From assembly GCA_017650905.1 (NCBI GenBank), contig JAGCDZ010000085.1, forward strand, positions 1-54,163: a stretch of 54,163 nucleotides of DNA, written 5' to 3'. This DNA comes from Prevotella sp. (GTDB lineage: Bacteria > Bacteroidota > Bacteroidia > Bacteroidales > Bacteroidaceae). This document shows positions 12,963-29,384 of the stretch, piece by piece. The notes beneath the pieces are model-generated. The model did no database searches and was not told where the DNA came from. It saw nothing but the letters and a program-made list of their open reading frames with translations. The first letter of the stretch is position 1, and each line of letters opens with the position of its first letter. The position numbers and the translations under genes are program-made.

Positions 12963-13046
12963 CAATATTTTTAAAAAAACACTGCATAATTACAGAAAAA
13001 TGAAATAAAAAGGCATTCTTTGCGACAGATTATCGTGAAGTTCTAA

Positions 13047-16829: not shown

Positions 16830-17394
16830 ATAAAAAACCCAAAACCGACAAAACGATTGAGGGGGTTTTATTTAAGGGCTGCAATCCTTACGGACTGCAA
16901 CCCTTTTACATACCCCCCTTGAAAAATAAACTGTGAATTGTGAATCTGTGAATGGTCATTGGTCAAACCCTGCGGAAGGATATCATTTTTGCGCCCTAAC
17001 TATGCAACAATTGTTCCCTAGGCAGGCAGCAAATCTTTCCCAGGCAGGGAACAATCGCTATTATTAATACTTGCAATTGTTACTATTAATATTCGCAAAA
17101 ACCCCCGTTTTCGCCGATTTACATATTTTAACACGCATATTTTCCCCCCTCAAAACACCTCATTTTCGCTCACAATCACGCATATTTCCCTTCCTTTCGA
17201 CTATTTATGAGGACTATTCTCGCTGCCTTCGAGAACTATTCAATCTACCCGCGAGAATACTTCAATCTCATTCTCGCACGACTGCAGCATTCTTTTTGCG
17301 GCCTTGCAGACCGTAAAACAAGAAAAAAAGTTAAAAATCGCGTGATTCATGCAGTCATCTTGGCGTTTTTTTATCTATTATAGAAAAACATTCT
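16830..17394. repeat. gene-free, repeat-rich intergenic region
   Basis: About 565 bp with no convincing gene. It holds a long imperfect palindrome (16859-16920, arms ~28 nt around CCTTACGG), an 8-bp CTGTGAAT repeat (16931-16965), a perfect 10-bp inverted repeat ATTGTTCCCT/AGGGAACAAT (17010-17019/17046-17055) overlapping a direct repeat TTCCC(T)AGGCAGG, twin TATTAATA(C/T)T(T/C)GCAA motifs (~17059-17100), and repeated CTATTC/TTCAATCT/TCTCGC words (~17212-17278). It looks like decayed mobile or regulatory repeats. Confidence 0.5.
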
Positions 17395-17429: not shown

Positions 17430-19943
17430 ATGAAGAAAATTGTACTCATAGTCTTTTCCATCCTTATGGTAACAACGGCTTTCGCTCAGGGTGGTGGGCA
17501 GAAGACGATAACATTGACTGATGCAGAGCGTAAGCTGGTGGAGCAAAACAGCGATTTTGCCTTTAACCTGTTTCGCAAGACGCGCGACACAGAGAGCCAC
17601 GTTATCTCGCCACTGAGCATCACCTATGCCCTTGGCATGCTCAACAACGGTGCTGACGGCATCACCCGCGAGGAGATCTGTCAGGTGCTGTCGGGTGGAC
17701 AACAGACCGATTATGCCGATGTGGCGACGATGAACGCCTTCTGCCGTAAGATGCTCACGGAGAGTGCCCTGTTGGACGAGGATACACGCGTGGCCATTGC
17801 CAACACCATCTTCTTCAACGGCGACCGTAAGGACATCACATTGAAGTCGGCCTTCAAGGATGCCGCAGCGACCTATTACGACGCTTCGCCCTTCGTGCTC
17901 AGTTTCAGCGACGAGGCCTCGTTGGGCATCATCAACCAGTGGGCCACCGACCAGACTGATGGCATGATCCGCGACCTGCTGAAGCCTGAGGACATGCAAG
18001 ACCCGAACCTTGTGAGTTTCCTGCTGAATGCCATCTGCTTCAAAGGTGCATGGGCCTATCCGTTCGACAAAACGTATACTTTTAAATCGTATTTCGATCA
18101 GAAGAAGCGCACAGCCATGATGATGACACAAAATCAGGACTTCCTTTATGCATCGACCGACCTCTACCAAAGCGTCATCCTGCCCTACGGCAACGGCTCC
18201 TACCAGATGACCGTCTTCCTGCCACAGTATGGGACGCTCGACGATATGCTGGAAGCCATGAACGGCAAGAACTGGAACACTGCCGAATATAAGAACTATC
18301 ATGTGATATTGGCTATGCCTCGCATCGAGACCGACACCAATCAGGATCTGGAAGAAATCATGGCCTCGCTGGGTATGAAGGATGCCTTTCTGAAATACAA
18401 TGGTCACGGCTTTATAGATTTCTGCTATGCAGGTGACAATGAGGCAAACTCCGACCCGTGCTGGATCAGCCTGATGCGCCAGAAAGCCCATCTGAAGCTC
18501 GATGAGAAAGGCACGGAGGCAGCTGCTGCGACTGTCATTGGGGTGGCAGACAAAGCCTCGCCCCAATATTACGCAGAGTTTATTGCCGACCGCCCATTCC
18601 TCTACATCATCAGCGAACGCTCCACTGGCAGCATCTTCTTCATCGGCCAGTATATGGGCGAGCCTATTGAGAATTTGCGCCATGACATCAGCCTTACCGA
18701 CGAAGAAAAGCAACTCGTGGAGAGTAACAACGAATTTGCCTTCCGCCTTTTCCGTGAGGCACGCGATGAGAAGAGCAGCATCCTGTCACCATTGAGCATC
18801 ACCTATGCCTTGGGTATGCTGAACAACGGTGCAGCTGGCAAGACACAGCAGGAAATCAACGATGTATTAGGTTTCGGCGAGGCCGGTGCTGACGGCATCA
18901 ACCAGTTCTGCCGGAAGATGCTCAACGAGGCACCAACACTCGACCAGGAGACCAAAGCCGAGATTGCCAACACTGTCTTCGTAAACAGTCATTGGGGCTT
19001 TGAGCTGAAGGAGCCGTTTGTGCAGAAAGCCAACGACTATTACGACGCACAGCCTGAGGCACGCGACTTCTATGACGGCTTGACGCGCGACGTCATCAAC
19101 CAATGGGGCAGCGACCATACGCAAGGCATGATCAAGGAGGTGCTCACAAAGGATGAGTTCAATATAGATGCCGTGAGCTATCTGCTAAATGCCCTTTATT
19201 TCAAAGGGGCGTGGGAGAATAAGTTTAATCCTGACAATACGAAAGACGAACCGTTTAACGGTAGCAATGTCGTGCCCATGATGCACATCTATCATGAGTT
19301 CCAGTATACCGACAACGACCTGTATCAGGCCGTGAGGCTGCCCTACGGCAACGGTGCCTACCTGATGACCGTCATCCTGCCTCGTGAAGACAAGACCATC
19401 GGTGACGTGCTCAGTCAGATGGACGGCAAGAACTGGCGGTTCAAGGATGGCTGTCCGCAAGTGGACCTGAAACTGCCACGCTTCGAGATCGATACGAACC
19501 TCGACCTGAAGCCCATCATGTCGGCATTAGGCATGCCTACGGCCTTCCGTTATGAAGCAGATTTCTCGGAATTCTGTAACGTTCCAACCTATATCAGCCT
19601 CATGAAACAGGTGGCGAGGATCATAGTCAATGAGGAAGGCACAGAGGCAGCCGCTGTCACCATCATAGGTACAGCGGCTGCGAGTGGGCCCCATTATAGC
19701 ACACATAGCACATTCCATGCCAACCGCCCGTTCCTATACATCATCAGCGAACAGTCTTCGGGCTGCATCTTCTTCATCGGCCAGTATATGGGCGAATCTA
19801 CCAGAAGCACAGATCATATTGAGAACCCAACCATCACAACAGACAATCCAATGATATATGATCTGCAAGGCCGTAAAGTGGTCAATGGCCAATTAAAGAA
19901 GGGACTTTACATTGTTGATGGTAAAAAGGTAGTGATTAAGTGA
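17430..19943 (+). CDS. secreted tandem serpin (two inhibitor domains) with T9SS-like tail
   Basis: A protein of 837 aa from ATG 17430 (signal peptide MKKIVLIVFSILMVTTAFAQ). Two full serpin domains follow one another (~25-405 and ~412-790), each with 'SPLSITYALGMLNNGA', 'NAxxFKGAW' and 'RPFLYIISE.S.G.IFFIGQYMGE'. Both hinges are of the inhibitory type: EKGTEAAAAT (359-368) and EEGTEAAAVT (735-744). Counting from the hinge, P1 is about Lys375 in domain 1 (trypsin-like target) and Ala751 in domain 2 (elastase-like target), within one to three residues. The end 'YDLQGRKVVNGQLKKGLYIVDGKKVVIK' is a T9SS-type tail. It is the first gene of a tight operon. Confidence 0.92.
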   Translation: MKKIVLIVFSILMVTTAFAQGGGQKTITLTDAERKLVEQNSDFAFNLFRKTRDTESHVISPLSITYALGMLNNGADGITREEICQVLSGGQQTDYADVATMNAFCRKMLTESALLDEDTRVAIANTIFFNGDRKDITLKSAFKDAAATYYDASPFVLSFSDEASLGIINQWATDQTDGMIRDLLKPEDMQDPNLVSFLLNAICFKGAWAYPFDKTYTFKSYFDQKKRTAMMMTQNQDFLYASTDLYQSVILPYGNGSYQMTVFLPQYGTLDDMLEAMNGKNWNTAEYKNYHVILAMPRIETDTNQDLEEIMASLGMKDAFLKYNGHGFIDFCYAGDNEANSDPCWISLMRQKAHLKLDEKGTEAAAATVIGVADKASPQYYAEFIADRPFLYIISERSTGSIFFIGQYMGEPIENLRHDISLTDEEKQLVESNNEFAFRLFREARDEKSSILSPLSITYALGMLNNGAAGKTQQEINDVLGFGEAGADGINQFCRKMLNEAPTLDQETKAEIANTVFVNSHWGFELKEPFVQKANDYYDAQPEARDFYDGLTRDVINQWGSDHTQGMIKEVLTKDEFNIDAVSYLLNALYFKGAWENKFNPDNTKDEPFNGSNVVPMMHIYHEFQYTDNDLYQAVRLPYGNGAYLMTVILPREDKTIGDVLSQMDGKNWRFKDGCPQVDLKLPRFEIDTNLDLKPIMSALGMPTAFRYEADFSEFCNVPTYISLMKQVARIIVNEEGTEAAAVTIIGTAAASGPHYSTHSTFHANRPFLYIISEQSSGCIFFIGQYMGESTRSTDHIENPTITTDNPMIYDLQGRKVVNGQLKKGLYIVDGKKVVIK

Positions 19944-19955
19944 AGACAGATAGTA

Positions 19956-20981
19956 TTGAATAGAATTATAATCGCCGCTTGTTTGATCGTGGTCTTCTGT
20001 TGCGCTGCCAGCGCACAGGAGGCCACGGGGCATGTTCATGCCGTCATCATTAGCGGTGGCAAGAATAAGCTGATGAACCATGAGCGCTATTGGAATGACT
20101 GCGCCTTTCTCTACCGCACCCTACGCGAGGACTACCAATTCTCAAAACAAGACATCACACTGCTCATTAGCGACGGTGGTGAAGCAGGCCGTGACATGCT
20201 CCTTGCCGATGGCAGCGGCTTTGTCACATCTCCCGCAGACCTTGATGGCGATGGTGAGCGCGACGTCTGGCTGCCTGCCACACTGGAACAAGTGGATGCC
20301 ACGCTGACGGAATTGGCTTCAAAGCTCACCACCAACGACCGGCTGTTCCTCTTCATGATTGATCACGGTGACAGTGAAGATGATCTGAGGGAGTCGTATG
20401 CCTTTATGTGGGGTGGCGGACGGCTCTATGATACCCATCTGGCCCAGCTGCTCGATGCCTTTCAGGTTGCATCGATGAGTTTGTGTCTGGGTATGTGTCA
20501 TTCAGGCGGCTTTATTGATGACCTGCAACGTGAGAACCGCATTATTGCCACCAGCTGCGCAAGCAACGAGGATTCATGGGCATGTCGCGATAAGCCATAC
20601 GATGAGTTTGTTTATCAATGGACGTGCGCAGTAGCCGGTCATGATCCGGAGGGTCATGCGATTGATGCGGATACTGATGGCGATGGTCAGATATCAATGG
20701 CAGAGGCTTTCAACTATGCCTATCAACACGACCGACGGGAAGAAACGCCACAATACAGCTCCACGCCAGCAACACTGGGCGAGCAGTGGTCACTCGTGCA
20801 AACGCCAAGAAACGGCATCGGTGGAACACGAATTGAAAAGAGTGACTTTGCCAATTGCCGATTCTATGACTTGCAGGGCCGGCTTATCCCCAAACCCTCG
20901 GGAACAGTGAGAAAAACTATAAAAAAACTTAATGCGAAGCAGTCTTTTGGGCTTTCGCCTATCATAATAGTAAAACCATAA
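19956..20981 (+). CDS. secreted legumain-like cysteine peptidase (C13, clan CD)
   Basis: A protein of 341 aa from a TTG start, the only codon that precedes the signal peptide NRIIIAACLIVVFCCAASAQ. Clan CD features: 'HAVIISGGKNKLMNHERYWNDC' like the legumain N-terminus, catalytic His137 in 'FLFMIDHGD', Cys181 in 'CLGMCHSGGF', then 'IIATSCASNEDSW'. An EF-hand-like 'DADTDGDGQISMAEAF' follows. Legumains cut after Asn or Asp; specificity here is untested. The C-terminus begins like a sorting tail (FYDLQGRLI) but its second half is replaced by repeat-derived sequence (NAKQSFGLSPIIIVKP). It starts 12 nt after the serpin. Confidence 0.8.
   Translation: MNRIIIAACLIVVFCCAASAQEATGHVHAVIISGGKNKLMNHERYWNDCAFLYRTLREDYQFSKQDITLLISDGGEAGRDMLLADGSGFVTSPADLDGDGERDVWLPATLEQVDATLTELASKLTTNDRLFLFMIDHGDSEDDLRESYAFMWGGGRLYDTHLAQLLDAFQVASMSLCLGMCHSGGFIDDLQRENRIIATSCASNEDSWACRDKPYDEFVYQWTCAVAGHDPEGHAIDADTDGDGQISMAEAFNYAYQHDRREETPQYSSTPATLGEQWSLVQTPRNGIGGTRIEKSDFANCRFYDLQGRLIPKPSGTVRKTIKKLNAKQSFGLSPIIIVKP
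20934..20958 (+). repeat. GCGAAGC hairpin insert in the C13 peptidase tail
   Basis: GCGAAGC pairs with GCTTTCGC (one bulge) around a loop of about 10 nt. It encodes AKQSFGLS, replacing the usual KGIYI part of the tail. Confidence 0.45.
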
Positions 20982-20986
20982 AGATA

Positions 20987-22063
20987 ATGGACATGAAGAA
21001 GACTTTCATAGTAGTGATGATGGCTTGTCTGCCTATCCTGTCACAAGCGCAAACCAAAGAGTTTGTGTGTTGGAATACCTATGGCCAGCAAATGAAACTG
21101 GCCGCAGAAGAAATGCTTCTGAAAGTACCCGATATGGTTGCTGCCATCGACCTGCGCAATGTTGAAGCCATAACGTTGGACTGCACTTCGGCCAACCCCA
21201 ACTGCCTATACTATACTAATGGTGCGACGTCTGTTGAGGGCTTACCGGGTGCCAATGTGGTGTGTGATGGCGTCTGCGACGGTCTGCTGCTCACCGACGA
21301 GGCCTGTTTCTATTGCCCCATGGCCTTCACGGCTACCGATGCCATGCTGCGGTTTACACCCCGGAGAGATGACGGAGAGGGCGAAGCATACTTCTATCAA
21401 CCATGCTATGAGACGGTCGTATTGCCCTTCGAAGCCGACTTGGTGATTCCTGCCGATGCAGACGGGCCTATGCCCAAAGGATGGTTTCAGGCGGGGAATT
21501 ATTGCGGATATGAGGACAAGATGCTGTTATTCAACCTGGCGAATGCGGAACGATTGACAGCCGATGTGCCCCACATGGTGAAATTCGAATACGCAGCCTA
21601 CGGTTCGCAGATACTTTTCTGCGGAGAGAACAAAACCGTGAAAGAAACAAAGGCTGCCATTACCAGCGGATCGCCTTTTAGTTTCGTAGGAATCACCACA
21701 TCAGCATATGAAGAAACTCTCGATTTCCGTTATTACAGGGGGCAGGAGCAATACTTCATCCACACTGGCAAAAAACAGTTGATGGAACCTTTCAGATGTT
21801 ATATAACCATCGGACTTCTGAATGAGAATGAATTCGAAAAATTGGTAGCCGAAAACCCGGGTTCCATATTTGGAACTGGCGATGGTGATGGTCCTGAAAA
21901 GGTTTTGAGATATACTATTGCTACTGAAGAAGCAACCGGTATCGATACGCGCAACAATCATCGCCCTTCAAAGATGCACTTCGACCTGCAAGGCAGACCA
22001 TTGGGAAATGGCAACAGAAGTAAGGGTATCTATATCATAGATGGCATAAAAGTCATAAAGTAA
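20987..22063 (+). CDS. unknown Cys-rich secreted protein with T9SS-like tail
   Basis: A protein of 358 aa (a Met at residue 3 is an alternative start). The signal peptide ends LPILSQAQ. The N-terminal half is Cys-rich ('FVCWNTYG', 'LDCTSANPNCLYY', 'NVVCDGVCDGLLLTDEACFYCPMAF'), and the middle is beta-rich ('ETVVLPFEADLVIPADADGPMPKGWF'). The tail 'FDLQGRPLGNGNRSKGIYIIDGIKVIK' is a clear sorting-type end. I recognise no enzyme motif. It lies 5 nt after the C13 peptidase gene and overlaps the sigma-barrel gene by 1 nt (TAATG), so it is made together with both and could be a substrate, ligand or partner of either. Confidence 0.72.
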   Translation: MDMKKTFIVVMMACLPILSQAQTKEFVCWNTYGQQMKLAAEEMLLKVPDMVAAIDLRNVEAITLDCTSANPNCLYYTNGATSVEGLPGANVVCDGVCDGLLLTDEACFYCPMAFTATDAMLRFTPRRDDGEGEAYFYQPCYETVVLPFEADLVIPADADGPMPKGWFQAGNYCGYEDKMLLFNLANAERLTADVPHMVKFEYAAYGSQILFCGENKTVKETKAAITSGSPFSFVGITTSAYEETLDFRYYRGQEQYFIHTGKKQLMEPFRCYITIGLLNENEFEKLVAENPGSIFGTGDGDGPEKVLRYTIATEEATGIDTRNNHRPSKMHFDLQGRPLGNGNRSKGIYIIDGIKVIK

Positions 22064-23565
22064 TGGAGGAGTTGATTCGGCGATGCCAGCAGGGTGATAG
22101 AGCGTCCATGGGACAGCTCTATACAGCCATGCATGACGAACTATTGGCACAATGTCGCAAATATGCTGCCAACGACAACATCGCCAAAGATCTGCTTCAC
22201 GATGCCTTCCTGCTGATATTCAGTAACATCGATCAGTTACGCTCGGCCAAGAAGGGTGTACAATGGATGCATAAGGTTGTCAAAAACGTATGCCTGCTCT
22301 ATGTACAGAATCGGCAGAATCATACTTTGGTATCCATTGATGAGGTCCGGGAGACATCACTTGGACCTGAGCCGGATATTGCTGTCAGCTACGATGATAT
22401 TCTGAACGCCATCGATCATTTGCCAAATGGCTACCGTCAGGTGTTCCGTTTGTCAGTGCTCGAAGGCCTGACACACCCAGAGATAGCCGAACTGTTAGGC
22501 ATCGAGCCTCACACCTCATCATCACAACTGCTCAGAGCTAAAAAACAATTGCGCCATTTGTTGCAAGTGCTGATGCTTTCACTGCTCGCAGCAATACCTT
22601 TAGGAGGGTATTATCTCTGGTCATTGCAAAGAAACAAGCAAAATGTGGCTGAAACTTCTGAGGTCAAGCCTACAGACATCATTGCTATTACTGACACTAC
22701 TGGCAGTTTGCCTACAGTAGACATGCATCATGAGGCCTCCGTAAAAGGCCAGAATACTCACAAAGTGAAAGAAATCGGTTTGCCGCTTGACACCATCGGG
22801 ACACAAGCAACCGCAAATGCACTTACTACTGAAGAGGCGCAAGTAACTGAGAATGTGCTTGCTACCGAAGGGACGCAAAAAAGCAGTCATGATGTGGCTG
22901 CGGATGATAAGAAAGCCGATGATCACGAAATAACGATAAACGAGGCCGTTGTGGCTCACTCAAACCTCTCACTATCTCTTGCGTATAACGGACTTCCTAA
23001 TGGCACAGGTAGATCTTTGCCTTATGGCGTTGATGGTATAAACGGAGATATTGATTCTGTGACTCACCATCGAATGCCGATTACTATCGCATTGAATGCC
23101 CGCTACCACTTGGGCTCACACTGGTGGTTTGATGGCGGACTTCGTTATACACAACTCTCCTCAGAGACGCAAGTAGGCAACACGTTCTTATTTATGGAAC
23201 AACAACAGCGTCTTCGCTACTTGGGACTCTCCCTTGGAATCGGCCACAATCTATGGCATCGCCAGAAATGGAGTCTTTATGCCACCACTTCGCTGACTTT
23301 CGAACTTCCACTGCATAGCACCGTAGAGACGTCGTATTGGAAGGGAGGTCAGTTAATCGATTCGGAAAATAACAAGCTCTCTCCACATCCACAGTGGTCT
23401 GTAGGTATTGGCATGGGTCTGCAATACAACCTGACACCAACCATCGGATTCTTTGCCGAGCCAAGTCTGCAATATTATTTCCACAATTCCGATGGCATCA
23501 ACACATGGCGCACAGAGCATCCATTTACCCCCATCCTGCCATTTGGCATAAGAATAACATTTTAG
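22063..23565 (+). CDS. sigma-70 (ECF) factor fused through a TM helix to an outer-membrane beta-barrel
   Basis: A protein of 500 aa in one uninterrupted frame. Residues ~9-75 are sigma region 2 ('LLHDAFLLIFSNIDQLRSAKKGVQWMHKVVKNVCL'). Residues ~111-165 are region 4 ('LPNGYRQVFRLSVLEGLTHPEIAELLGI...SQLLRAKKQLRHLL'). Residues ~166-187 form one hydrophobic helix ('QVLMLSLLAAIPLGGYYLW'). Residues ~188-298 are a polar Thr/Glu/Asp-rich linker. Residues ~299-500 alternate hydrophobic and polar strands ('ITIALNARYHL', 'WWFDGGLRYTQL', 'LGLSLGIGHNLW', 'QWSVGIGMGLQYNL') and end in Phe, as outer-membrane barrels do. The predicted topology is sigma in the cytoplasm, helix in the inner membrane, barrel in the outer membrane. 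The start overlaps the previous stop (TAATG). No separate anti-sigma gene is present. Confidence 0.88.
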   Translation: MEELIRRCQQGDRASMGQLYTAMHDELLAQCRKYAANDNIAKDLLHDAFLLIFSNIDQLRSAKKGVQWMHKVVKNVCLLYVQNRQNHTLVSIDEVRETSLGPEPDIAVSYDDILNAIDHLPNGYRQVFRLSVLEGLTHPEIAELLGIEPHTSSSQLLRAKKQLRHLLQVLMLSLLAAIPLGGYYLWSLQRNKQNVAETSEVKPTDIIAITDTTGSLPTVDMHHEASVKGQNTHKVKEIGLPLDTIGTQATANALTTEEAQVTENVLATEGTQKSSHDVAADDKKADDHEITINEAVVAHSNLSLSLAYNGLPNGTGRSLPYGVDGINGDIDSVTHHRMPITIALNARYHLGSHWWFDGGLRYTQLSSETQVGNTFLFMEQQQRLRYLGLSLGIGHNLWHRQKWSLYATTSLTFELPLHSTVETSYWKGGQLIDSENNKLSPHPQWSVGIGMGLQYNLTPTIGFFAEPSLQYYFHNSDGINTWRTEHPFTPILPFGIRITF

Positions 23566-23671: not shown

Positions 23672-24589
23672 ATGGGGACAGACGACGTAAAACAACTTCA
23701 TGCGCAACTGCAAGAACTGCGCGAAGATTACGAGGCCCTGAAACATAATTTCGACATTATGTCGGATGGTTATCAGGAATCGCTTTTGCTTTATGACAAG
23801 TTGATGGAAACCTACCACGAACTGGAGGAGTCCAACAAGCAGTTGGATATTGCCCACCATCGCGCAGAAGAGGCCTCACGTATGAAGACTTACTTCATCC
23901 AGCAGATATCCCACGAAATCAGGACACCTCTCAACATCTTGAGTGGTTTTACGCAAGTGCTCACCATGCCAGACATGGAACTTGACAATGCCACGAAAGA
24001 AGAGGTGGCCAAGGGTATCGGCGACAATACTGAGCGCATCACGTCGCTGGTGAACAAGATGTTGGAACTGGCCGATGCCAAAAGCAGCGATGGACTGGAA
24101 CGCAACGATGATGTGCCGGCCGTACAGATTGCTGCACAGGCTGCCGATGAGAGCCGCATCACTCTGGCTTCTCACCTTACTTTCGACATCGACCTAGCTG
24201 AGGGTGCCGATATGGCTATGCTCCACACCAACCTGCATCAGGCCACTCGTGCCCTTTCGCTTCTTCTGGACAACGCCATGAAGTTCACCCATCCTGCCGA
24301 AGCGGCTGGTGGAGCCGCAGCTGTGAAGGAGAAAGCGCGTGTGATGTTACGGCTCTCTCTGACAGCAGAACAACAGATAGCCTTCGCCGTTGAGGATACA
24401 GGTATCGGAGTGCCCCCAGAGGAGGCCGAACATATCTTCGAAGAGTTCGTACAACTTGACGATTATTACGACGGAACCGGTATCGGCCTCACTGTAGCCC
24501 GCAGCATTGCCCGCCGTTTAGGAGGCGACATTGTGCTCGACACTGACTATACTAATGGGGCACGCTTTGTGTTCACTCTGCCAATATAA
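23672..24589 (+). CDS. soluble sensor histidine kinase
   Basis: A protein of 305 aa, no membrane segment. Residues ~5-70 form a charged coiled coil. HisKA has the phospho-acceptor His81 in 'FIQQISHEIRTPLN'. The ATPase domain has the N box 'LLLDNAMKFT', G1 'VEDTGIGVPPEEAEHIFEEF' and G2 'GTGIGLTVARSIARRLGG'. There is no PAS, GAF or receiver domain, and no response regulator next to it; the orphan regulator at 32978 lies 9 kb away. The input could be through the coiled coil or a partner protein. It lies directly after the sigma-barrel gene but has its own promoter. Confidence 0.92.
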   Translation: MGTDDVKQLHAQLQELREDYEALKHNFDIMSDGYQESLLLYDKLMETYHELEESNKQLDIAHHRAEEASRMKTYFIQQISHEIRTPLNILSGFTQVLTMPDMELDNATKEEVAKGIGDNTERITSLVNKMLELADAKSSDGLERNDDVPAVQIAAQAADESRITLASHLTFDIDLAEGADMAMLHTNLHQATRALSLLLDNAMKFTHPAEAAGGAAAVKEKARVMLRLSLTAEQQIAFAVEDTGIGVPPEEAEHIFEEFVQLDDYYDGTGIGLTVARSIARRLGGDIVLDTDYTNGARFVFTLPI

Positions 24590-28271: not shown

Positions 28272-28893
28272 ATGCTATAAATTCTGTTTGTTCATTAATA
28301 TATATAATGGTACCATCTTCTTGCATCACGGGAATATAGCCGTAGGCAGCCAACTGGGCCTCAATGATTTCCTGCTGGGCCTGCTCTATCTCTCGTTCCA
28401 CCTCCATCCGTTCCTGCTCTGCCTGAGCCATCAGCGCGTAAGCCTTGTCGTAGTCGTGGATAGTGGGTTCCAACTTGCGGAAACGTCTCTTCTTGGATTG
28501 AACAGGCTGGACTTCGATTTTGCGTAGGGAGGCCGTATCAGATGATAACTCCTTTGCTTGTTCTTTTGGCTGTTGTGCCTTAATCGTGTCTGATTGTGCT
28601 ATTAGCGGCTTTGTCTGGGGCTCCTCCCTTTGCAGCCACTGAGTCGTAGCAAACAGAATGACAATGCCAGCCACAGCTGCAGCCACACTCCAACCAATCC
28701 ACTTATGCTTGGGTTTGGCTGATGGCTTCATCGACTCTATCTCTTGGAACAGCTGCCGATAGTCCTCCCATTCCTGAGGTATGTCTTTACCTCGGAAGTA
28801 TCTGGCAAGGATATCTTCTTCCTCCAACGTCGATGTGCCCGCCATATATTTGTCGAGCAACTGACTGATGTATGCCTTGGTGTACTGTATCAT
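28261..28893 (-). CDS. probable single-pass anti-sigma factor
   Basis: A protein of 210 aa. The N-terminal ~60 residues are a small helical zinc-finger-less anti-sigma-like domain ('ISQLLDKYMAGTSTLEEEDILARYFRG'). One membrane helix follows at ~68-85 (WSVAAAVAGIVILFATTQWL). The periplasmic part contains a Glu/Gln-rich coiled coil ('MAQAEQERMEVEREIEQAQQEIIEAQ'). It overlaps the sigma gene by 4 nt (ATGA), the usual sigma/anti-sigma coupling. It lacks the FecR domain common in Bacteroidetes anti-sigmas. Confidence 0.72.
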   Translation of the reverse strand: MIQYTKAYISQLLDKYMAGTSTLEEEDILARYFRGKDIPQEWEDYRQLFQEIESMKPSAKPKHKWIGWSVAAAVAGIVILFATTQWLQREEPQTKPLIAQSDTIKAQQPKEQAKELSSDTASLRKIEVQPVQSKKRRFRKLEPTIHDYDKAYALMAQAEQERMEVEREIEQAQQEIIEAQLAAYGYIPVMQEDGTIIYINEQTEFIAYEE

Positions 28894-29384
28894 ATCTTTT
28901 TCCTACGTTTTATTTCTTCCAATAATGTTCGTCTTGCCCTTGCTAAGAGTGTGCTGACGGATGTGATCTCTATGCCCAATAGTCGGGCTATCTCTTCGTG
29001 ACTTCGCCGCTCCACCTGTCGCATATATAATAACGTGCGTTGTGTGGTAGGCAGTTGTTGCAGGCGGTTCATAAGCCATTGTTCGTCCTCCTTTATCTCC
29101 AATATGTCGTGAGGACTGGTATTGATGCTGACCGTTATTGCCTCGTTGAGCGCCTCTGGTGTTCGTCGCCTCTGGTGATTCCTCAGCAGATGTTTTGCCA
29201 TCAGTGCTGTGAGTGCCTCCACAGAGTCGTAGCGGTCCAGTTCGTCGTGCATCTGCCACAAGTGAAGCATCACATCCTGTGCGATGTCCTCTGCTTCGTC
29301 TTTGCCCGCCCCATAGTGTATGCTCACGTCTAGAGCCTTATTCCGCCACGTGCGGGCCATACGTTCAAATGCATTTCTATCCAT
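28890..29384 (-). CDS. ECF RNA polymerase sigma factor
   Basis: A protein of 164 aa. Region 2 'DEAEDIAQDVMLHLWQMHDELDRYDSVEALTALMAKHLLRNH' and region 4 'LPTTQRTLLYMRQVERRSHEEIARLLGIEITSVSTLLARARRTLLEEIKR' are intact and of normal length. It heads a five-gene operon (sigma, anti-sigma, exported unknown, barrel, anchored unknown). The leader is ~110 nt and contains one arm of a 13-bp inverted repeat whose other arm covers the -7 box. Confidence 0.93.
   Translation of the reverse strand: MDRNAFERMARTWRNKALDVSIHYGAGKDEAEDIAQDVMLHLWQMHDELDRYDSVEALTALMAKHLLRNHQRRRTPEALNEAITVSINTSPHDILEIKEDEQWLMNRLQQLPTTQRTLLYMRQVERRSHEEIARLLGIEITSVSTLLARARRTLLEEIKRRKKI

Follow-up and report, generated by a model that had tools for sequence, protein, structure and literature searches.

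A Dma3-like sigma factor joined to a predicted outer-membrane barrel in Prevotella, and the promoter-like site that accompanies most of its relatives

FecAIR-type cell-surface signaling, in which the state of the outer membrane controls an ECF sigma factor, uses three separate proteins, whereas the system described here consists of one. Its nearest described counterparts belong to the Dma family, reportedly introduced by the PNAS 2024 paper on Dma1. According to the accessible part of PMC13088901, the Dma1/Dma2 type has a separate sigma factor and an anti-sigma domain in the membrane protein. In Dma3 of B. thetaiotaomicron (locus bt_2778-2779), the cognate sigma factor is described there as the protein's own N-terminal domain (PMC13088901). 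By the authors' account very little is known about Dma3; it is induced when dma1 or dma2 is mutated, and the hypervesiculation of these mutants does not depend on it (PMC13088901). The accessible part of that article contains no mention that we could find of a Dma3 promoter, of its regulon, or of a loss of the anti-sigma domain, and in the open-licence PMC literature we found no report on what promoters or regulon sigma-fused Dma proteins have. Fusions of a sigma factor with a membrane anti-sigma part are also described in the accessible part of PMC8999054, namely IutY (ECF243), which is freed by Prc and RseP, and ECF48, ECF52, and ECF53.

The window analyzed here, a stretch of 54,163 nucleotides from Prevotella sp., encodes a Dma3-like protein at 22063..23565 on the forward strand. 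A sequence-only reading of this DNA had seen sigma-70 regions 2 and 4, a helix, a polar linker, and a barrel-like domain ending in Phe within one frame, and the open reading frame, the Pfam matches, and the hydrophobicity profile all agree with that description. The frame starts at an ATG and encodes 500 amino acids with zero internal stops. Region 4 is clear (Sigma70_r4_2, aa 111-163, 22393..22551, 3.4e-15), and region 2 (Sigma70_r2, aa 19-85, 22117..22317, 1.3e-4) scores 22.1 bits in the protein search, below the cut-off of 24, and 26.3 bits, above it, in a six-frame search of the genome. Directly after region 4 comes the most hydrophobic 19-mer of the protein, aa 163-181 or 167-185 according to which of two sigma models is followed, and we place there a single predicted transmembrane helix with a proline inside (about aa 167-185, 22561..22617). 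The polar tether behind it (about aa 186-298, 22618..22956) is presumably periplasmic, and the linkers of its relatives are under weaker constraint. It leaves about 113 residues between the helix and the first barrel strand, as read from the sequence; a linker of this length, if extended, could cross a periplasm. The remainder (22957..23562) is predicted to form an outer-membrane beta-barrel of perhaps 8 strands, again as read from the sequence, and its C-terminal residue is Phe. OMP_b-brl (PF13505) matches aa 316-469 with 2.2e-5 and 25.1 bits, below the cut-off of 28.7, and the residue-by-residue alternation of hydrophobicity averages 2.39 over aa 299-500 and 0.91 in both the sigma part and the linker, on a scale with raised aromatics that favors barrels.

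Relatives carry the same domains. When fused relatives were aligned (43 members, E up to 0.01), Sigma70_r2 and Sigma70_r4_2 matched all 43, and OMP_b-brl and OMP_b-brl_2 each matched 39. These domain assignments confirm that the window protein joins an ECF sigma factor, a helix, a polar linker, and a predicted OMP-type barrel in one frame. A profile search of PDB sequences with the fused family matched only sigma factors (24 sequences) and no barrel. PhyR-type mimicry was considered and rejected, with a weak match in one of the 43 members (E up to 0.01) and a value of 0.092 for the window protein.

The sequence-only reading had allowed that this domain order might be absent from relatives, or that a frameshift might separate the sigma factor from the barrel. 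Instead, reading the open frames yielded 76 distinct fused proteins, the window's included, that keep the same order in a single frame; they span 15 sampled genera, a few are shortened at the 5′ end (e.g., L055 and L066), and the gene occurs in at least 34 of the 100 genomes of the genus sample. Excluding the window itself, the single-frame relatives found in this sample by protein search reach at most 58% identity over almost the full length. Two named rumen Prevotellaceae MAGs have contig-encoded relatives; the best segment is 59% identical, and identity over an alignment amounts to 62-63%. Among the 151 genomes of the family sample, at least 30 have a row matching nearly the whole model and at least 14 of the 30 genera have the fused gene; G201 has an internal TAA in its row, G185 lacks the first 53 positions, and reading of the open frames confirmed further fusions in G107, G239, and G225. 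The order sample (247 genomes) added a genome of another family, G856, with two fused genes, both read as open frames, and in the phylum sample (395 genomes, three candidates scored per genome) no fused frame from outside the order was found among the matches listed.

Both ends of the protein are conserved by selection. Among the 60 closest pairs, which share 70-97% identity and are not independent of each other, median dN/dS is 0.125 in the sigma part (57 usable pairs), 0.122 in the barrel (57), and 0.244 in the linker (59), after leaving out three, three, and one pairs, respectively, with unusable dS. These values show purifying selection on the sigma and barrel ends, as far as sequence comparison can tell. 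Because 76 distinct proteins keep the order in one frame and dN/dS is low, the fused frame is no frameshift artifact. Only extracted open frames were counted as fused, and further candidates in G206, G248, G154, G172, G593 (twice), G136 (with stops), G064, and G058 were rejected since their open frames are separate neighboring genes. Loci L009-L038, which duplicate longer extracts save for L012 and L021 (further fused genes), were excluded from the tree, neighbor, and promoter counts. A 407-aa frame at L146:2104-3327 (reverse strand) has this type of sigma factor at its N terminus, no barrel match, and another C-terminal extension.

Homologous split pairs are common. They consist of a sigma gene (about 175-235 aa) and a second gene, mostly of 380-460 aa, that overlaps it or comes shortly behind it; the product of the second gene has a short N-terminal anti-sigma-like domain followed by a helix, a linker, and a barrel homologous to the fused one; we call these proteins Dma-like from their layout, rather than from comparison with named Dma sequences. 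Two such pairs (L116 and L117) and a second fused gene (L074) occur in the genome to which the window belongs. In the sigma tree (115 rows plus four outgroup rows), the window's sigma factor groups with the sigma genes that neighbor Dma-like genes, for which the label ECF21 is taken from the accessible part of PMC13088901. The 76 fused rows, together with the frame-broken L113 and L115, form one group against the 37 split ones; its support is 100/100 in this tree and 100/98 in that of the barrel part (115 rows, midpoint root). Since both trees unite the fused proteins in a single clade, one origin of the fusion is the simplest reading of these phylogenies. The region 2 Trp is invariant across fused and split forms and the region 4 motif LPxGY...SHxEIAxxLGI...QLxRAK is strongly retained in both, while region 2 diverges between the two over much of its length.

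What distinguishes the fused proteins is the junction. In every one of the 76, the sigma domain is followed by the helix after -1 to 9 residues, with no anti-sigma domain between the two, and the N-terminal anti-sigma domain of the Dma1/Dma2 type is likewise absent from all 76. From the helix to the barrel model they span 130-224 residues (median 197.5, n = 76). The helix segment contains a proline in 69 of the 76, against 8 of the 37 Dma-like proteins of split pairs. The fused form hence looks like a Dma protein with a sigma factor in place of the anti-sigma domain. Its predicted helix-tether-barrel layout resembles that of the Dma family, from whose Dma1/Dma2 type it differs in having the sigma factor within the chain, and its N-terminal sigma domain in a Dma-type chain is what is described for Dma3, a likeness drawn from the description of Dma3 in the accessible part of PMC13088901 and not from its sequence. 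The architecture is therefore not new, having already been described as Dma3 (PMC13088901). Like IutY, ECF48, ECF52, and ECF53, the fused proteins have a sigma factor covalently joined to a membrane segment; those proteins differ in having anti-sigma-like parts, and the accessible part of PMC8999054 does not mention an outer-membrane barrel of their own. In the fused proteins an IutY-like anti-sigma domain between sigma factor and helix is absent.

One could still attach no signaling meaning to the fusion and suppose that the barrel works like any ordinary outer-membrane protein, and the broken frames between sigma and barrel in L113 and L115 would suit such a view. The 76 fused frames in 15 sampled genera speak against it, and so does the disappearance of the anti-sigma-like domain from the fused form, which fits a covalent link having replaced that domain. 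We consider this explanation hardly credible. As to the two loci themselves, both lie in the fused clade with the break between the sigma-helix part and the barrel, and the two frames of L115 overlap by 4 nt, so that this could be a secondary re-split.

The upstream regions of the fused genes bear on whether the sigma part still works. A conserved putative ECF-like promoter, TGCAGT...GGAC or TATC, precedes most fused genes or their operons, and often the next gene too. Of the 76 fused genes, 60 have TGCAGT in the 350 nt before them, at -49 to -74 in 59 of them and at -136 in L066, usually in the form TGCAGTCTTTT, and a GGAC/GTATC-like element begins 21 or 22 nt past it in 52 of the 60. For the other 16 genes no TGCAGT occurs within 350 nt upstream, and 14 of these closely follow another gene; the 16 are nine window-type operons, four loci with a common gene directly in front (L059, L073, L079, and L158), L074 with other genes in front, L055, whose 5′ end is lost, and L111. 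A strict bipartite pattern found 54 sites in the 100 genomes, against 12 for the reversed control. Genomes with a fused gene (34, a minimum count) hold 44 of these sites, and the other 66 hold 10. Thirty-seven of the 54 lie next to a fused gene, whole or truncated, with 21 before it and 16 after it, one operon-start site and one more distant site being included; the site-to-gene list comprises the truncated sigma stretches G034:C6 and G034:C73, and its approximate start for G078:C31 affects no site. When the site before the fused gene was compared with the following one, the -10 class was the same in 43 of 43 comparisons (28 GAC/GAC and 15 TATC/TATC), drawn from 34 of the 76 loci, the other 42 being untypable or lacking a second site, and amounting to fewer independent events since the loci are related. 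Together, these patterns show a promoter-like site made of TGCAGTCTTT and a clade-specific -10-like element.

Because this site travels with the fused gene, the sigma part looks functional. The sigma domain could conversely have ceased to drive transcription and serve as a decoy for anti-sigma proteins or RNA polymerase; in the sigma tree the fused clade stands on a long stem (0.85), a sign of fast early change that could be read in this way. Such a decoy would hardly be expected to retain the signatures of regions 2 and 4 at a dN/dS of 0.125, nor to be accompanied by a promoter-like site whose -10 changes with the clade, and we deem it very improbable.

Part of the promoter may be older than the fusion. 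In the last 150 nt before split loci, a script found TGCAGT in 7 of 39, one of which, L113, is a broken fused gene, and the occurrence at L085 (-18) is probably due to chance. Five of the 37 split loci (L104-L107 and L149) have sites of the form TGCAGTATTT with another -10, and L147 and L123 have sites similar by eye; the remaining 30 of 37 have no such site in the last 150 nt, some of them sitting inside operons. Given these five loci and the two similar ones, the -35 recognition may have been inherited from the soluble sigma factor. That region 4 kept its target and region 2 changed it fits the promoter data in only a part of the split family. Away from fused genes, L166 (reverse-strand motif at 966) and L169 (forward motif at 623) have unlinked sites before small putative lipoprotein genes, homologous by eye to one that often follows the fused gene; these are candidate trans targets. 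L074 (contig C49 of the window's own genome) has a TGCAGTCTTT site 644 nt upstream, before a 184-aa frame on the same strand.

In the window, the sigma-barrel gene is the last of four forward-strand genes, separated by gaps of 12, 5, and -1 nt. The first encodes a double serpin, a protease inhibitor (17430..19943; Pfam Serpin, 2e-170, two stretches), for which the ATG at 17430 was preferred over the start of the open frame at 17349. It is followed by a C13-type cysteine peptidase homologue (19956..20981; Pfam Peptidase_C13, 1.2e-9) and by an uncharacterized protein with a signal-like N terminus and no Pfam match (20987..22063), whose gene overlaps the start of the sigma-barrel gene by one base. 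This operon sets the window copy apart from the two-gene locus of Dma3 (PMC13088901, accessible part). A pattern search predicts an ECF-type promoter at its start, TGCAGTCATCTTGGCGTTTTTTTATCT at 17350..17376 (forward strand), with a TGCAGT -35-like and a TATCT -10-like element, and the serpin ATG lies 80 nt downstream. The strict pattern misses this site; the looser one, TGCAGTNNTN{11,14}TATCT, which was chosen after the site was seen, has two matches in the 2.9-Mb genome, both in the window, against one for the reversed control.

The arrangement is shared by related loci. In all nine window-type loci (blastp clusters), homologues of the C13 peptidase and of the uncharacterized protein directly precede the fused gene, a serpin homologue lies before or after it in 7 of 9, and the nine aligned C13 homologues all keep one His and one Cys, the presumed dyad. 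Six window-type loci reach past the operon start, and four have the loose site there (the window, L046, L048, and L052), while L045 and L047 have none. In other fused lineages the neighbors are a putative lipoprotein, a radical SAM/SPASM enzyme with a Gfo/Idh oxidoreductase, or a methyltransferase. No cognate ECF21 sigma gene adjoins the window copy, which is flanked by the C13 peptidase, the uncharacterized protein, and a histidine kinase; the nearest other sigma frame (28890-29384, reverse strand) lies more than 5 kb away on the opposite strand. The histidine kinase (23672-24589), with HisKA and HATPase_c as its only matches, begins 106 nt after the sigma-barrel gene, and the gap between them has no TGCAGTCTTT-like site with up to 2 mismatches. 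The serpin and several of the window-type C13 and uncharacterized proteins end in a similar tail, YDLQGR...KGIYIVxGKK-like (window 17430-22063). The similar tails prompted a search for Type IX secretion cargo, and no sorting domain was found with NCBIfam. Elsewhere in the window, at 12977-12986 on the reverse strand, TGCAGTGTTT followed by TGTATCTTTGCA precedes a 303-aa frame, possibly by chance; we take this site to resemble the common Bacteroidetes -7 element.

The explanation we favor, with a probability of about 0.68 for the whole, is that this Dma3-like ECF sigma factor spans both membranes, drives its own expression, is braked by its tether, and is released by a change in the barrel. The sigma part would be a working promoter-recognition factor acting on its own gene and its neighbors, in a positive feedback. 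The tether itself would likely be the brake, holding region 4 against the inner membrane, because no anti-sigma domain is left and region 4 lies at most 9 residues from the helix. A change in the barrel, such as assembly failure, ligand binding, or proteolysis at the surface, would then end the restraint, most simply if a cut in the periplasm were followed by cleavage of the proline-containing helix within the membrane, which would set a soluble sigma factor free. The proline is a weak cue for such cleavage. The genome has one homologue of the M50 site-2 protease, and its presence says little, since an M50 match was also found in 14 of 14 control genomes. In the window lineage the signal may concern cell-surface proteolysis, given the serpin and the C13-type protease encoded in the operon; this is the weakest step of the scheme.

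ToxR/CadC-type proteins are one-component regulators, and they provide a model for another possibility, that the sigma factor is active while anchored in the inner membrane, with the barrel only tuning its conformation or position and no cleavage taking place. The lack of any remaining anti-sigma domain is compatible with this, and the promoter evidence fits a bound and a freed sigma factor alike. Still, with region 4 at most 9 residues from the helix there would be little room for a whole RNA polymerase, and the proline-bearing helices favor cleavage somewhat, so that we regard permanent anchoring as unlikely, while keeping it in view. The broader interpretation of the sequence-only reading, a tethered sigma factor that signals from the envelope to the polymerase, is in our judgment partly supported: the joining of the sigma factor itself to helix, tether, and barrel is borne out by the domain order in a single frame.

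Carrying the tether-brake explanation further, we tentatively suggest, at slightly less than even odds, that the fused proteins are a clade of sigma factors without an anti-sigma domain, silenced purely by their covalent tie to the barrel. They would run small, self-feeding regulons, and loss of the outer-membrane end would be read directly as transcription, with no partner. Such a regulon would comprise the gene itself and the next operon, and sometimes a putative lipoprotein gene elsewhere.

What is new here is the evidence that the sigma part works, through the conserved promoter-like site. With this site, a reporter and a few candidate target genes are at hand, which makes the mechanism directly testable. 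In the window lineage, a serpin and a cysteine-protease homologue are linked with the sigma-barrel regulator as well. Should the tether act as the brake, the route from the outer membrane to RNA polymerase would be about as short as it can be, a single protein.
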